A DNA stretch of 37,169 nucleotides from contig JAPKCA010000011.1 in assembly GCA_028823145.1 (NCBI GenBank), positions 1 to 37,169 of the forward strand, in the 5' to 3' direction. A model generated the notes under the pieces. That model was not told where the DNA came from. It searched no databases and was given only the letters and a program-made list of their open reading frames with translations. Positions 6,534-11,308 of this stretch are shown here, piece by piece. Position 1 is the stretch's first letter; every line of letters begins with the position of its first letter. Source of the stretch: Flavobacteriales bacterium. GTDB lineage: Bacteria > Bacteroidota > Bacteroidia > Flavobacteriales_D > Sanyastnellaceae. Position numbers and translations under genes: made by a program.

Positions 6534-8069
6534 TCAAAACAAAAGGAATTGAGGCTCTTCTGCCCCAGCAACACTTTCCAGCCATGCCCTCTTCCAATCA
6601 GACCATCCTCCTTTGCACTGTGCCAAAACAAGAGCATTCAACTGGCGTTCCTGTGGCAATCCGTTGGGAGTAATCCATTTGTCAAACGATTCTTCCAATG
6701 CCTGGCAATACCCCGCATGGCGCAAACGCACCTGTTTTCTCCACTTTTTCTTCAATGCCAACAATTCCTTTTCCATTTGAACCAACGTCCCCTTTGTCGC
6801 AGGCAATGACTCCCGTCCGACTCCTGTCGCATAGGCTTGCAATGCGCTTTCCCAATCCTTCCAAGCCGATTGCAATGATGATTCCGATGCCAATTGGGAC
6901 GACACCCATGCGGCGCTCGCTTCAGGTCCACGCCACCATCCCTTTCGAGGGTCCCACCCCAACTTCCCCACAAGTTCCGAGGCCGTATCAGACAGAACCA
7001 ACCCTCCATCCCGCATCAACAAAGCCGGATGGTTCAGGCCATGAAACTGAAATGCTTCGCCCAATTGCAACCAATAAGCCACTTCACCGGGCCCACCGAC
7101 AACTGCCGCGCTCTCCAATAAAAACTCTTGATACAATGGACGCAAGGATGCATTTGGGCTCCATTCCACAGGAGAAATCGATCGCCAAGCGTCGGTAGGC
7201 TGGTTGGTTGCCCATCGATCCGCGCGCGTCCGCTCCCCGCTGTTACTGAGGTGAAAGACATTGTTCACTTGCGGTTTCAGTTGTGCCTTCCAACCCTGTG
7301 CCTCGAGGGCACTGGTGGCTGACACGACTGATGGCGCTATGCCCTCGCCTGCCCATTCAGCGACAAAAAGATGATTTGCCAAACCCTTCAATGTTGGGTC
7401 GTCTCCGTCCAAAATCAACACTCCCTCGTCGCCAAAAAAGTCATGCACCCACCGCCTCACACGAGTTGCCAAGGTTTCATCTACTCCAATCGCCTCTTCA
7501 CTTGAATCGATTCCTTGGGACAACATCCAATCATGAAGTCCCCTTTCGTCATCGGCCGTCCAAGGCATCCGTCCCACTGCACAGTGTGGCGAAGCGCTCG
7601 CTGGGCGATTCCACACAAAGGACTCCGCACTGGCTCCATGAACTGCCGAAATCTCAACGAAATCATGATCTTCAGAAGCCATCCAAAAAACCGGGACGGC
7701 CGCATGGCCTTTTGCCTGAAGCTGTTTTGCCCATCGGATAGAAGACAGGATTTTGTAATGAAAATAGGCCGGGCCTCCCATCAATTGCAATTGATGGCCG
7801 GTCGTCACGGAATGAGCTCCTTGTTCGAATGCTGTGAGCGAATCTGGCGGCGACAACCCCGCTTGAAGGTACTGTTTCCGAATGACCTCAGATACGGATT
7901 TTCGCCGATCTATGTTCAATGAATGTCCCTGATTGATGCTGGAAACCACCCCTTCCATCGATGAGCCAAACGGCCAAAATGACTCAAGGCTCTTTTCTTT
8001 CGACACCCAAGCTCTCGCGAGTGAATCGCGGCCGAGTACTTCCACTTGTGGAATTCGAGTGACCTTCAT
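6534..8069 (-). CDS. bshC: Bacillithiol biosynthesis cysteine-adding enzyme BshC
   Basis: A 511-residue protein of the BshC family, which adds cysteine to glucosaminyl-malate in the last step of bacillithiol synthesis, the low-molecular-weight thiol used by Firmicutes and many Bacteroidota. The diagnostic region is residues 87-140: SVTTGHQLQLMGGPAYFHYK followed by VPVFWMASEDHDFVEI. A coiled-coil segment lies near residues 420-460, as in the family. The reading frame runs 10 codons further upstream to 8099, but an exact TAGATTTG box ends 5 bases before the ATG at 8069, so the shorter form is taken. BshA and BshB are not in the window. It sits in a same-strand run after the T9SS cargo gene (40-base gap). 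Confidence 0.95.
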   Translation of the reverse strand: MKVTRIPQVEVLGRDSLARAWVSKEKSLESFWPFGSSMEGVVSSINQGHSLNIDRRKSVSEVIRKQYLQAGLSPPDSLTAFEQGAHSVTTGHQLQLMGGPAYFHYKILSSIRWAKQLQAKGHAAVPVFWMASEDHDFVEISAVHGASAESFVWNRPASASPHCAVGRMPWTADDERGLHDWMLSQGIDSSEEAIGVDETLATRVRRWVHDFFGDEGVLILDGDDPTLKGLANHLFVAEWAGEGIAPSVVSATSALEAQGWKAQLKPQVNNVFHLSNSGERTRADRWATNQPTDAWRSISPVEWSPNASLRPLYQEFLLESAAVVGGPGEVAYWLQLGEAFQFHGLNHPALLMRDGGLVLSDTASELVGKLGWDPRKGWWRGPEASAAWVSSQLASESSLQSAWKDWESALQAYATGVGRESLPATKGTLVQMEKELLALKKKWRKQVRLRHAGYCQALEESFDKWITPNGLPQERQLNALVLAQCKGGWSDWKRAWLESVAGAEEPQFLLF

Positions 8070-8108: not shown

Positions 8109-9161
8109 TCAGCGAATCAAATTGATGGATCCCGAACGAGTCAATATGGTTCCGTTCAGTTCTTTCGCCTCCAATTTCCAGATGTACATACCGGGTGTGG
8201 CCTGCTTCGCCCCTAAAACATTTCCATCCCACCCTCTATCTTCGCCCGCCTCCATGTTCCACATCAACTCTCCCCAGCGGCTGAACACGTCAAAACGGAC
8301 CAAGTCCAAGTTGCTCAAAACTGGCTTAAACCAATCGTTTTCGCCATCTTGGTTTGGCGTAAAAGCATTGGGCACAAACCAAGAAGCTTCCGTGTCCAAA
8401 TCAATGGTGACCGTTTGTGGCTTGATGGATGGACCTCTGACCATTTCTTCATCCGATTCTATATCCATGGATATAATCTCGATTTGAAACGCATCCACAA
8501 AATAATAGGCCATTTGTGGGTTGGCCCCATCGTGAATTTCCATCGCATGCATCGCATCCGCACCAAAAAGGCCACACGTGAAATGCGTTGCCGGTTCATG
8601 GGCGGTAAATGAATATGCGACTTCTTGCCACTCACGGTCGTAAAAAACTTGCGTCATGGAAAAGGCCGGAATGACATTCAGTGGTTCCAAGTCAGTTTGG
8701 GTGAGACTTCCCTCGGAAAAGTGTATTCCCAAGCCATTTACCCCGTAGCCCGCTAAAGAAAAGACCGTCGGACTTCCATTCGTCATTGACCAAGTCATCC
8801 GATAACGAACGCCAGGTATCAACGATTCTGAAAAAGTCCCTGTGAGGTATTCTCTTCGATTTGCGCCAGGGGTTCCCGACGCCATAAAACCTGCAATCGC
8901 CATGCCCTGGAATGGTGCCACGATTGCAACAGGAGTTTCTGGTAAATCTCCTCCTCCAATTCCCCCTACGTGGTAAACATCAGGGTCGGCAACTGCGCTC
9001 GACGCATTGCTCCATCCGGCAGCCAATGACCATTGACCCGTGTTGGAAGGAAGGTCCGACAACGTTTCAAATCCACCATTGACAACCGATTGACCCCAAG
9101 ACGGGTTCGCCATCATCAGGCCACACAACATGCAGGCTAACAAAGATTTAAGTATTGCCAT
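8109..9161 (-). CDS. Secreted protein with type B T9SS (gliding-motility C-terminal) sorting domain
   Basis: A 350-residue exported protein. Residues 1-24 are a signal peptide (cut near SWGQS). The mature start VVNGGFET and following Gly/Pro-rich region look like a jelly-roll-type domain seen at the N-terminus of many Bacteroidota surface proteins. The last ~90 residues are a CHU_C / gliding-motility-associated domain: FVPNAFTPNQDGENDWFKP, then FDVFSRWGELMWN, then GWDGNVLGAKQATPGMYIW. This domain directs export through the Por (type IX) secretion system and surface placement. The longer frame to 9236 is not used because the signal peptide begins at 9161 and a TACCTTAG box lies 16 bases upstream. 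It is the fourth gene of a run that begins with an ECF sigma factor. Confidence 0.85.
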   Translation of the reverse strand: MAILKSLLACMLCGLMMANPSWGQSVVNGGFETLSDLPSNTGQWSLAAGWSNASSAVADPDVYHVGGIGGGDLPETPVAIVAPFQGMAIAGFMASGTPGANRREYLTGTFSESLIPGVRYRMTWSMTNGSPTVFSLAGYGVNGLGIHFSEGSLTQTDLEPLNVIPAFSMTQVFYDREWQEVAYSFTAHEPATHFTCGLFGADAMHAMEIHDGANPQMAYYFVDAFQIEIISMDIESDEEMVRGPSIKPQTVTIDLDTEASWFVPNAFTPNQDGENDWFKPVLSNLDLVRFDVFSRWGELMWNMEAGEDRGWDGNVLGAKQATPGMYIWKLEAKELNGTILTRSGSINLIR

Positions 9162-9177
9162 AGGGTGATTCACCTTC

Positions 9178-9185
9178 CTAAGGTA
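9178..9185 (-). promoter_or_regulatory. -7 promoter box with short leader
   Basis: On the minus strand TACCTTAG, one mismatch from TAnnTTTG, ends 16 bases before the ATG at 9161. It lies in the 43-base gap after the upstream gene. Confidence 0.35.
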
Positions 9186-9204
9186 GTGACTTTGATTGCA
9201 ATAT

Positions 9205-10149
9205 CTATGCATGATTCCAGATCCATTTAGCAACAAGTCTCAGCCATACAGGTTGTGGTGAGTTGGGTTGCCACCTTCCTCGGATTCCCACCTCACCGAA
9301 CCCATGGGCTCTCGAAAGGTTGGCCATCCATTTCCTGTGCAAACCGCATTCGATAAAAGGCAAGACACTTGCCTTACTCCAGCTGTTTTCCTCGAAAGCA
9401 TATCCGCGATCCAACGCAGGCTCAAACAAGCGCTGCTCTTGGATTTCGTTTAGGAGAATTGAAAAGCCTGTCGAAAAATGAGCAGAAACCAACTGGTTGA
9501 TGTCCCAGTTTCCTCCAAACCCCATGGTGGCTGAGTACAGCCACAACCGGTCTGAGGAAATGGCAAGCGTATCGGTCTCGACTCCAATTGGGAACCTGGA
9601 GTATGTGATGGCTAAAAGAGATTGGTCCAGGTCCGCCAATGCAAAACCAATCAGGGAGTCCGGAAGCAAATCCACATCCATAGCCCGCATGCTGCTCGCT
9701 TCCAATGACAACGAATATTCGATCGTGAATGGATTGGAGCGGGCAATCCCCGCTCGTCTCTTCGGGGTTTTGCTCATCCCCCATTGCACTTGGATGCTTT
9801 GATTTTGGCCTTGACCCCATGATCGAAATGCCCGTCCATCATCCGCCAATTGATCCATTCCCCAACCCAATCCAACCATTGCAAAAGGATTTCCAACCTG
9901 GGGTTGATTCCGGGTGCGACTCAACCTTCCATGGGTGTTTGAACTCTGCCCAACCGACACCGAATCAAATTTTACCTGAGCGTCAACTATGAGCAATCGT
10001 CCATCTACTCGAATGGTATCCAAAGGGATTTCAGCACATGCCACACCTTGCCATCCAACCACACCAGAGGCCAAAAGCAGCGTGCAAAGGACAACAGCAA
10101 GACTGAATGAAAAGTGGGGGCTCCATGTTTTTGGCAAGTCAATGGACAT
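9205..10149 (-). CDS. Predicted outer-membrane beta-barrel protein, function unknown
   Basis: A 314-residue exported protein that I do not recognise. Residues about 14-39 form a signal peptide (hydrophobic LAVVLCTLLLASGVVGW, cut near GVACA). After a polar N-terminal stretch, the second half shows repeated amphipathic strands with aromatic girdle residues, for example FTIEYSLSLEAS, LLAITYSRFPIGV, LWLYSATMGFGGNW and PVWLRLVAKWIW near the end, as expected for a small outer-membrane barrel. The upstream gene ends 11 bases before the ATG at 10149; the longer frame from 10197 would overlap it by 37 bases. It sits directly after a sigma/anti-sigma pair, an arrangement common for envelope-stress modules, so it could be a target or sensor part. 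That is inference. Confidence 0.65.
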   Translation of the reverse strand: MSIDLPKTWSPHFSFSLAVVLCTLLLASGVVGWQGVACAEIPLDTIRVDGRLLIVDAQVKFDSVSVGQSSNTHGRLSRTRNQPQVGNPFAMVGLGWGMDQLADDGRAFRSWGQGQNQSIQVQWGMSKTPKRRAGIARSNPFTIEYSLSLEASSMRAMDVDLLPDSLIGFALADLDQSLLAITYSRFPIGVETDTLAISSDRLWLYSATMGFGGNWDINQLVSAHFSTGFSILLNEIQEQRLFEPALDRGYAFEENSWSKASVLPFIECGLHRKWMANLSRAHGFGEVGIRGRWQPNSPQPVWLRLVAKWIWNHA

Positions 10150-10155
10150 TGCACG

Positions 10156-10163
10156 GAAAGTTA
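10156..10163 (-). promoter_or_regulatory. Possible internal -7 box
   Basis: On the minus strand TAACTTTC, one mismatch from TAnnTTTG, overlaps the stop codon of the upstream gene and ends 6 bases before the ATG at 10149. It may be chance, since the gene could be read through from upstream. Confidence 0.3.
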
Positions 10164-10673
10164 GTGCTTCAGCTTTACCACAACAGGAATCACCCAATGA
10201 TCTTCCGTTTTGACCTGAATATTTCCCGAATCCAGATCGGCTGTCCCAAGCGATGAAGCTGGAATCGTTTGGATCGTTTCGAGCTGTTCTGTCGAATTTG
10301 AAGGCATCTCCTGGGCCACATGTGGTTGAGTGAATGGTGGAGAAACCGCGTGGGTTGAAATCGTTGAAGGGAGCGCCACCTGTTCCAAAACCTCCGGTTC
10401 GGCAACGGCTTCATCCACTCTGGATTCCTCCTGCGCAGCAACCACTTCTTGCATGATGGAAGTCTTTTCTACGGCCTCTTCGATTTGACTGTGTGCCAAA
10501 CCCCAATATCCGGCACCGACCACTGAAACCATCAAAACAGCAACCACCGCTCTTTGCGTCCAACGCATTCGATTCAAATGCCCAAACACCGCATCTTCCA
10601 GACCTGCTGGAGGAACGACTGATTCGCCTTCGTACATCCCACGGATGTGTTGATCAAATTGTTCAAGACTCAT
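10161..10673 (-). CDS. Candidate membrane-bound anti-sigma factor
   Basis: A 170-residue protein with one membrane span (about residues 41-60, AVVAVLMVSVVGAGYWGLA). The first 40 residues would be cytoplasmic and the remaining 110, rich in Glu, Val, Ser and Pro, periplasmic. No zinc-type HHCC anti-sigma motif is present. The call rests on position and topology: its start overlaps the end of the ECF sigma gene by 11 bases, the usual coupling of sigma and anti-sigma genes, and the N-terminal part begins like other Bacteroidota partners (FDQHIRGMYEGESVVPPAGLED). It could instead be an unrelated membrane protein of the same operon. Confidence 0.6.
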   Translation of the reverse strand: MSLEQFDQHIRGMYEGESVVPPAGLEDAVFGHLNRMRWTQRAVVAVLMVSVVGAGYWGLAHSQIEEAVEKTSIMQEVVAAQEESRVDEAVAEPEVLEQVALPSTISTHAVSPPFTQPHVAQEMPSNSTEQLETIQTIPASSLGTADLDSGNIQVKTEDHWVIPVVVKLKH

Positions 10674-11232
10674 GTGACTCTTTCTTCTTCGCTCTTTGTG
10701 ACATACCGACCAACACTTCTTGTAAGAAGCGCCGAGCCCGGCTCAATTGACTCTTCGATGTATTGATATCAATACCAAGCAGCTCTGCAATTTCTTTGTG
10801 CTTCAGCCCGTCTATGATATACATCTTAAAAACCATTCCATACCCAGGAGGCAGTTGCTCGATCGCGCGATCCAATTCCTCTTTGGTGTATTCTACTTCC
10901 TTGAACGCATCCAAGTCCCGAGGGGTTGCACGGACCTCATCAACATCCACGTGATAAGCGTGCTTTAAATTTTTTCTATAGTGCGTAATCGCCGTATTAA
11001 CGACAATTCTACGCAACCACCCCTCAAAACTATTGTGCTCCGAGAATGACTTGAAATGACGGAAAACTTTCACCCAGGATTCTTGCAAAACATCTTCCGC
11101 ATCGACGCGGGTGTTGGTGTACCGGATGGCTACGGCAAACATAATTCCACTGTATTGCGCATACACTTGTCGCTGTGCCGATGGCTCACCGCGCTTGCAC
11201 GCTTCAATCAGATCAATTTGCTTTTGTTCCAT
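10663..11232 (-). CDS. ECF-type RNA polymerase sigma factor
   Basis: A 189-residue sigma-70 family protein of the extracytoplasmic-function type. Region 2 spans about residues 24-90 and shows the core-binding and -10 recognition helix DAEDVLQESWVKVFRHF followed by FEGWLRRIVVNTAITHYRK. Region 4 spans about 119-172, with IEQLPPGYGMVFKMYIIDG, then the helix-turn-helix HKEIAELLGIDINTSKSQLS. Such factors switch on envelope or stress genes when released by a membrane partner, here probably the overlapping downstream gene. The start ATG at 11232 fits the family length. A weak TTG and TAAATGGA pair upstream may be a promoter, but the match is poor. A 76-base gap separates it from the ACMSD-type gene. 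Confidence 0.95.
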   Translation of the reverse strand: MEQKQIDLIEACKRGEPSAQRQVYAQYSGIMFAVAIRYTNTRVDAEDVLQESWVKVFRHFKSFSEHNSFEGWLRRIVVNTAITHYRKNLKHAYHVDVDEVRATPRDLDAFKEVEYTKEELDRAIEQLPPGYGMVFKMYIIDGLKHKEIAELLGIDINTSKSQLSRARRFLQEVLVGMSQRAKKKESHES

Positions 11233-11308
11233 AAGTCCCTACGTCCATTTAACCAACGCGAATCACCCTTTCAAGGTTGCTCCACATCCTCCTTTCCTTC
11301 TTGAAAAT

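Follow-up and report, generated by a model that had tools for sequence, protein, structure and literature searches.

A stretch of 37,169 nucleotides from a Flavobacteriales bacterium of the family Sanyastnellaceae (contig JAPKCA010000011.1; "the window" below means this whole stretch) carries on its minus strand four adjacent genes, which encode an extracytoplasmic function (ECF) sigma factor, a predicted membrane anti-sigma factor, a predicted outer-membrane beta-barrel protein and a type B cargo protein of the type IX secretion system (T9SS). The four genes probably constitute a sigma/anti-sigma switch that spans the envelope and serves type B T9SS surface proteins specifically; in design it would be a "split" version of the Dma proteins of Bacteroides. 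The gene set, its order and its promoter are well supported, and the physical relay between the proteins is what we infer from them. The evidence computed here comprises the gene set and order, the domains, structure models of the barrel and the cargo, a promoter footprint, an anti-sigma domain shared with relatives, and natural fusions of the parts.

Gene order in the window and across the family

The gene of the sigma factor P0001 (189 residues, 10663–11232) overlaps that of its partner P0002 (170 residues, 10161–10673) by 11 bases; the barrel gene P0003 (314 residues from its ATG, 9205–10149) follows after 11 bases and the cargo gene P0004 (350 residues from its ATG, 8109–9161) after a further 43, exactly as an earlier note on this DNA had described the run. 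A predicted ECF promoter of the form GCAACC-N17-GTT (11255–11280, minus strand) starts 48 bases before the sigma ATG, and the functional unit should be extended up to it. It should perhaps also be extended to bshC (bacillithiol synthesis; 6534–8069, minus strand; Pfam BshC 1.1e-56), a candidate operon member whose ATG lies 39 bases after the cargo stop.

Conservation of the order in relatives, on which the earlier note had made its proposal depend, was found. The scan of named genomes gave 77 loci, among which L124–L191 (68 loci) represent this system; the set L084–L123 shares many genomes with it, and its counts were kept apart. Loci L192–L200, considered as relatives of the cargo from outside the family, were rejected as no more than distant domain matches. 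At least 2.7 kb upstream of the cargo is available in 55 of the 68 loci, and in 54 of these Flavobacteriales loci the sigma gene, a partner-sized gap, the barrel gene and the cargo gene follow one another on one strand. Because it recurs in this way, the four-gene order appears to be far beyond chance. Across the family, 14 genera have the complete set of sigma, barrel, cargo and a gene of the partner's size. A simple search of 100 related genomes detected the barrel in 25, of which 21, counting the window's own genome, belong to the window's genus, and the partner in 23, of which 20 do. With profiles made from the stretches nearby, the barrel was recovered over a wider range. The cargo is found at full length in further genera as well, and its count of 60/60 also takes in matches limited to the CHU_C domain. 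Identity to the window protein over 22–25 aligned rows is 9–31% for the partner, 13–31% for the barrel, 33–57% for the cargo and 44–81% for the sigma factor. No open reading frame (ORF) in the named loci matches both the anti-sigma and the barrel profile.

The gene after the cargo is bshC in 64 of 65 named loci, including the single exception to the order, L147, in which cargo and bshC stand without sigma, anti-sigma and barrel. Cargo and bshC might then be a conserved pair upstream of which the switch lies by happenstance of history. We consider this very unlikely: the order survives where the flanking genes differ, promoter footprints lie before the sigma gene and, in two genera, before the cargo (see below), and upstream of bshC, within the ~1–1.5 kb fetched, 23 genomes from the order's other families gave no match to sigma, anti-sigma, barrel or cargo (in two of these genomes a gene that matches the cargo profile, of CHU_C type, faces bshC from downstream). 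The position of bshC beside the cargo makes a link to thiol redox control possible.

The four proteins and their fused counterparts

The sigma factor contains regions 2 and 4 (Pfam Sigma70_r2 1.5e-16, Sigma70_r4_2 9.1e-18) and scores 98.3 bits against TIGR02985, under the cut-off of 126.4. For the partner and the barrel no Pfam or NCBIfam model exceeded its cut-off, and the earlier note was right, at the level of sequence, that both lack recognised families. Comparison of profiles identifies the partner as an anti-sigma factor: its N-terminal region matches the N-termini of other predicted anti-sigma factors from three layouts of relatives with hhalign values of 96–98%, versus 0.9% for the N-termini of barrel and cargo used as controls (L327 and L344 were left out of the profiles owing to repeated N-termini). 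By sequence criteria the two proteins are an ECF sigma and membrane anti-sigma pair, and the partner is predicted to hold the sigma factor. The anti-sigma factor begins with a short N-terminal region; next come a hydrophobic stretch, whose hydropathy peaks at 2.0 at residue 42 and which is predicted to form a single transmembrane helix (residues 42–60, 10494–10550), then a tether and lastly a strand-like C-terminal tail formed by the last 12 residues (10164–10199). The tether, from helix to tail, is poorly conserved and, by alignment composition alone, rich in Pro, Glu, Ser and Thr. The tail is one of three recurrent types, which account for 47 of 57 named orthologues (WVLPA-like in 31, LPLTL-like in 12 and PVKV-like in 4).

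The prediction of the earlier note that the third protein is a barrel was borne out by its structure model and the matches of this model, which give an outer-membrane barrel. The AlphaFold2 model (61 sequences; mean predicted local distance difference test (pLDDT) score 81.6, predicted TM-score (pTM) 0.71) starts with a long helix resembling that of a signal sequence, which is followed by a hairpin and then by a small OmpA-like barrel (residues 87–311, 9217–9891) with eight strands of at least 11 residues and some shorter ones. The hairpin, presumed to be periplasmic, spans residues 44–54 around DTIRVDG (9988–10020), and its D44 is invariant in alignment A5. In a Foldseek search of the PDB the best matches of this model were exclusively outer-membrane barrels, of several strand numbers (best E-value 3.7e-4); the small barrels OmpA, Ail and NspA reached target TM-scores of 0.53–0.60 against the P0003 model.

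The cargo carries a CHU_C/type B sorting domain (residues 263–334, 8160–8375) recognised by Pfam (PF13585, 2.1e-11) and NCBIfam (TIGR04131, 6.3e-10), each over cut-off, and this domain, near the C-terminus, assigns it to the type B T9SS proteins. Its model (48 sequences, mean pLDDT 91.6) has an N-terminal helix at residues 2–16 with a hydrophobic start, a jelly roll and the CHU_C domain; in structure comparison the jelly roll is nearest to the carbohydrate-binding modules (CBM) CBM4, CBM22 and CBM16. Two loci of one species (L103:8431-10044 and L138:7902-9515) have a cargo frame of about 540 residues in which the match to the window cargo stops at about residue 332, perhaps because of a frame change near the end of CHU_C, and in one species (L091:8339-9949) three genes intervene between barrel and cargo, i.e., one for 130 residues with no family match, a YceI-like gene and a gene for a cNMP-binding regulator.

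The sigma profile matches 108 of 119 genomes of the class at 1e-30. From a much larger number of sigma matches, the 28 best loci outside the family were chosen for a count of layouts, with no genome contributing more than one. In 11 of these 28 loci the anti-sigma-like protein itself ends in CHU_C (L324, L328, L330, L331, L332, L336, L339, L344, L345, L349 and L350; all over the Pfam cut-off). The transmembrane stretch of these fused proteins begins at residues 39–80, several of them carry PKD domains, and three of four tested were over the TIGR04131 cut-off, the fourth reaching 34.7 against 35. In nine loci the anti-sigma factor has a long tether and a barrel-like end, resembling the published Dma proteins by layout (four are complete; five run off the fetched DNA and were judged by sequence alone). 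In six loci the anti-sigma gene is followed by a separate secreted gene, which in all six runs off the fetched DNA. In L333 the gene after the anti-sigma-like one looks unrelated, and L346 has no readable partner gene. In the sigma tree these layouts are intermixed, and the window's family forms one clade (support 0.99). The N-terminal domain of the window's anti-sigma factor matches the barrel-fused set, which is Dma-like by layout, at 97.6% in hhalign. With CHU_C fusions in 11 and barrel-like ends in 9 of the 28 loci, both proteins that follow the anti-sigma factor in the window thus occur elsewhere as the C-terminal part of an anti-sigma factor of the same type, and this comparison of split with fused forms is the strongest sign that the parts work together.

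Of the 11 loci with a CHU_C-fused anti-sigma factor, 8 have a CHU_C cargo gene on the same strand, either immediately after the anti-sigma gene or one gene further on (three confirmed by Pfam; the profile used for this search was home-made and included the anti-sigma ends). A search of the 11 stretches with one PorP-like query found no PorP-like gene near them. Locus L122, a second sigma factor of G030, was considered as a fused Dma and rejected, its next gene encoding PKD and a weak CHU_C (0.012).

These fusions bear on a different explanation, by which the sigma and anti-sigma factors form, with the barrel, a general stress pair of the outer membrane, and the cargo is just one of its regulated outputs, without a part in sensing. 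It would fit the cargo's own promoter copy in two genomes, G032 and G028, as expected of a mere target, and the persistence of the cargo in L147 where the switch is missing; and a barrel-fused pair of Phocaeicola is induced by a toxin, likely via envelope stress, according to the available part of its description (PMC9308784). Yet the cargo adjoins the switch in 54 of the 55 loci, and in the 11 class loci CHU_C itself forms part of anti-sigma factors of this kind, and we regard the stress pair as a possible but rather doubtful account. A switch dedicated to type B surface proteins, with the cargo as one of its parts, is the reading followed below.

Promoter and predicted regulon

Directly before the sigma gene, GCAACC-N17-GT is found in 36 of the 56 named loci with enough upstream DNA, against a background of ~0.008 per window of the same size, and the spacer between the two boxes is unconserved; GCAACG or GCAACT stands at the same spacing in seven further loci (read by eye among the misses). 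A second copy of GCAACC-N17-GT lies before the called cargo start in two genera, at a distance of 63 bases in G032 and of 46 bases in G028. A sigma regulon that excludes these genes, which the earlier note had named as evidence against its proposal, has not appeared so far, the predicted promoter standing before the sigma gene and, in the two genera, before the cargo.

Genome-wide counts of the motif were rejected as proof of a regulon, being uninformative in the own genome and weak in four others. The predicted regulon rests instead on footprints before orthologues, because in the own genome the loose motif occurs no more often than its reversed control (47 sites versus 61). In four genomes from other genera a stricter motif gave 34 sites and its reversed control 22; among the genes after the motif are the sigma gene, the cargo gene and genes for secreted proteins that form homologous pairs between genera.

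The gene of a choice-of-anchor-L protein (~1,080 residues) has the motif within 130 bases in 25 of 30 loci, the own genome among the 25, whereas other permutations of the hexamer gave at most 1 of 30 and other spacings 0 to 6. The protein of the own genome has CHU_C (1e-15) at its C-terminal end and a choice_anch_L domain (1.9e-54). Its ORF of 1090 residues (L386:1884-5720, C1 of the own genome) comes directly after another ECF sigma gene, and a GCAACC-N17-GTT site lies between the two.

Such a second sigma gene, of the RpoE type, is found near the choice-of-anchor-L gene in 27 of the 30 loci and could encode the reader of the site, all the more as ECF sigma factors can share a motif. That another ECF sigma factor is the reader of the GCAACC-N17-GT sites seems improbable to us in view of the site directly before the window's sigma gene across genera, and of the 831 bases before the RpoE-type sigma ORF in the own genome, which contain no GCAACC. 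Reading of the sites by the sigma factor of the switch is the assumption kept here.

A gene for an LTD/CotH-like protein was also considered and rejected as a general member of the regulon, with the motif within 300 bases in 8 of 30 loci (within 130 bases in 7) and in none of the loci from the window's genus. In two other loci (L388:767-3001 and L389:834-2999) the promoter motif lies between a gene whose end is CHU_C-like and a gene for a small secreted protein of about 140–150 residues, which in L388 is followed by that of a PKD/P-domain protein.

Proposed relay, known systems and a candidate small RNA

According to the mechanism that we propose, the anti-sigma factor would hold the ECF sigma factor at the inner membrane, its Pro/Glu-rich tether would carry it across the periplasm, and its strand-like tail would dock on the periplasmic side of the separate barrel, most likely by strand pairing with the N-terminal hairpin. 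On its outer side, the barrel would be linked to the condition of either the type B cargo or the outer membrane. If the contact were lost or changed, the anti-sigma factor would become open to proteolysis, and the freed sigma factor would fire GCAACC-N17-GT promoters, i.e., those of its own operon, of the cargo and of at least one further CHU_C surface protein. The docking of tail and barrel, the proteolytic release, the signal and the identity of the sigma factor that reads the promoters all belong to the proposal. The earlier note had suggested a surface-signalling module; gene order, predicted promoter, anti-sigma profile and barrel model agree with this suggestion, and the direction of sensing (from cargo over barrel to anti-sigma factor) and transcription as a single operon are what we infer.

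Several observations weigh against such a switch. The hairpin on which the tail would dock is weakly predicted (strands 45–48 and 51–54 at block pLDDT 60–66), and 10 of the 57 anti-sigma orthologues have no recognised tail. The barrel gave no match in hhalign (0.2–1.6%) to the barrels of fused and split relatives and to one PorP-like protein. Pfam barrel models match three of the four complete fused cases (one over cut-off), and among five of the separate secreted genes tested with these models one was over cut-off and one weak. The exact promoter is missing from 20 of the 56 loci, and 13 have none even if GCAACG and GCAACT are allowed (in all 13 the preceding gene ends at most 24 bases from the called sigma start or overlaps it). 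Locus L147, the loose-motif counts of the own genome, the other ECF sigma gene in choice-of-anchor-L loci and the lack of the motif before the LTD/CotH-like gene in the window's genus are to be counted here too.

The known systems are compared here as far as the available parts of the cited sources describe them. In the Dma proteins of Bacteroides an anti-sigma domain is followed by a transmembrane helix, a disordered tether and an outer-membrane barrel, and the protein acts through the adjacent sigma factor Das (PMC13088901). The window system is like them in its adjacent ECF sigma factor, its anti-sigma N-terminal domain and its one transmembrane helix, with a barrel at the far end (PMC13088901, PMC9308784). 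It is unlike them in that the barrel is a separate gene, the anti-sigma factor ends in a short strand-like tail and a T9SS cargo belongs to the unit. The comparison is one of layout, no barrel homology between the window protein and the fused relatives being detectable by hhalign; the term "split Dma" rests on layout because P0003 and the barrels of the relatives show no profile match, and membership among the Dma proteins is not claimed because the barrel of the window was found not to be fused; a Dma would also be expected to have a cognate sigma factor of group ECF21. By analogy, and with moderate confidence, we suppose that the window system works like a Dma.

In signalling of the TonB type (Fec, Fox) an outer-membrane protein contacts the C-terminal part of an inner-membrane anti-sigma factor in the periplasm and protects it from proteolysis (PMC11637429). 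Unlike these 22-stranded proteins, the window barrel is small in its model, and no plug or STN domain was found in P0003, since no Pfam family matches it; with a model that likewise lacks a plug, signalling of this type was rejected. In PorP/SprF an outer-membrane barrel binds a protein with a type B C-terminal domain (CTD), and PorP-like barrels have 14 strands (PMC9143113). The window barrel, by contrast, has eight long strands rather than a 14-stranded FadL-like fold and scored 0.2% in hhalign against one PorP-like protein, and the identification as PorP/SprF was rejected.

In Porphyromonas gingivalis the T9SS CTD protein PorA signals through PorXY to SigP and hence into an ECF sigma pathway; homologues of PorA are reported in Porphyromonas only, and the link runs via a two-component system (PMC7712824). 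In the window, unlike there, sigma, anti-sigma and cargo are adjacent genes. The SM6 promoters of Flavobacterium psychrophilum carry at -10 a CGT box as part of a predicted ECF motif, and they precede, among others, genes for T9SS components, a small RNA and a pair of ECF sigma and anti-sigma factors (PMC9723704). The likeness to the window, one of description, is that a predicted ECF motif stands before a sigma/anti-sigma pair and T9SS-related genes (PMC9723704). In the parts of the openly licensed literature that were available no description of an anti-sigma factor with a T9SS sorting domain or of this operon was found.

Little is settled on how T9SS bacteria keep cargo production in step with the condition of their outer membrane. 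In the known case of PorA and SigP the link from surface to inner membrane is missing, and the window module could supply one in compact form: it offers adjacent parts, a predicted promoter, a predicted regulon member and fusions that point to the parts that should touch. The layouts found across the class suggest a single signalling design that comes in three or more layouts, one of which is that of the published Dma proteins. As a more tentative idea, which we would not yet call likely, the ECF anti-sigma factors of Bacteroidia might be wired to the T9SS via its sorting domain, either as CHU_C-ended proteins or through separate genes of the same operon; CHU_C would then test the occupancy of the machinery or of a barrel partner, secretion status would control cargo expression, and in part of the family a small RNA would stand behind an ECF-like promoter. 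A like logic, in which secretion status controls expression, is that of FlgM in flagella.

The candidate small RNA is an element before the cargo gene with a conserved 18-base core (one mismatch allowed), found in 23 of the 68 named loci (e.g., L146:7715-7864) and inverted in L141. None of 22 genomes of the window's genus contains a 17-base core of this element, and a search of six sources gave no Rfam match at the gathering score. The 17-base core is present in 12 of 80 genomes, which belong to 10 genera (one of them in another family), and the reversed control in none. A site of the form (A/G)CAACA-N17-GT precedes the candidate in 19 of the 23 loci, other spacings giving 0 to 4. In an alignment of 18 of the 23 elements the core is invariant from AGTTG on and is followed by a hairpin, with two-sided changes at each of its 12 predicted pairs.

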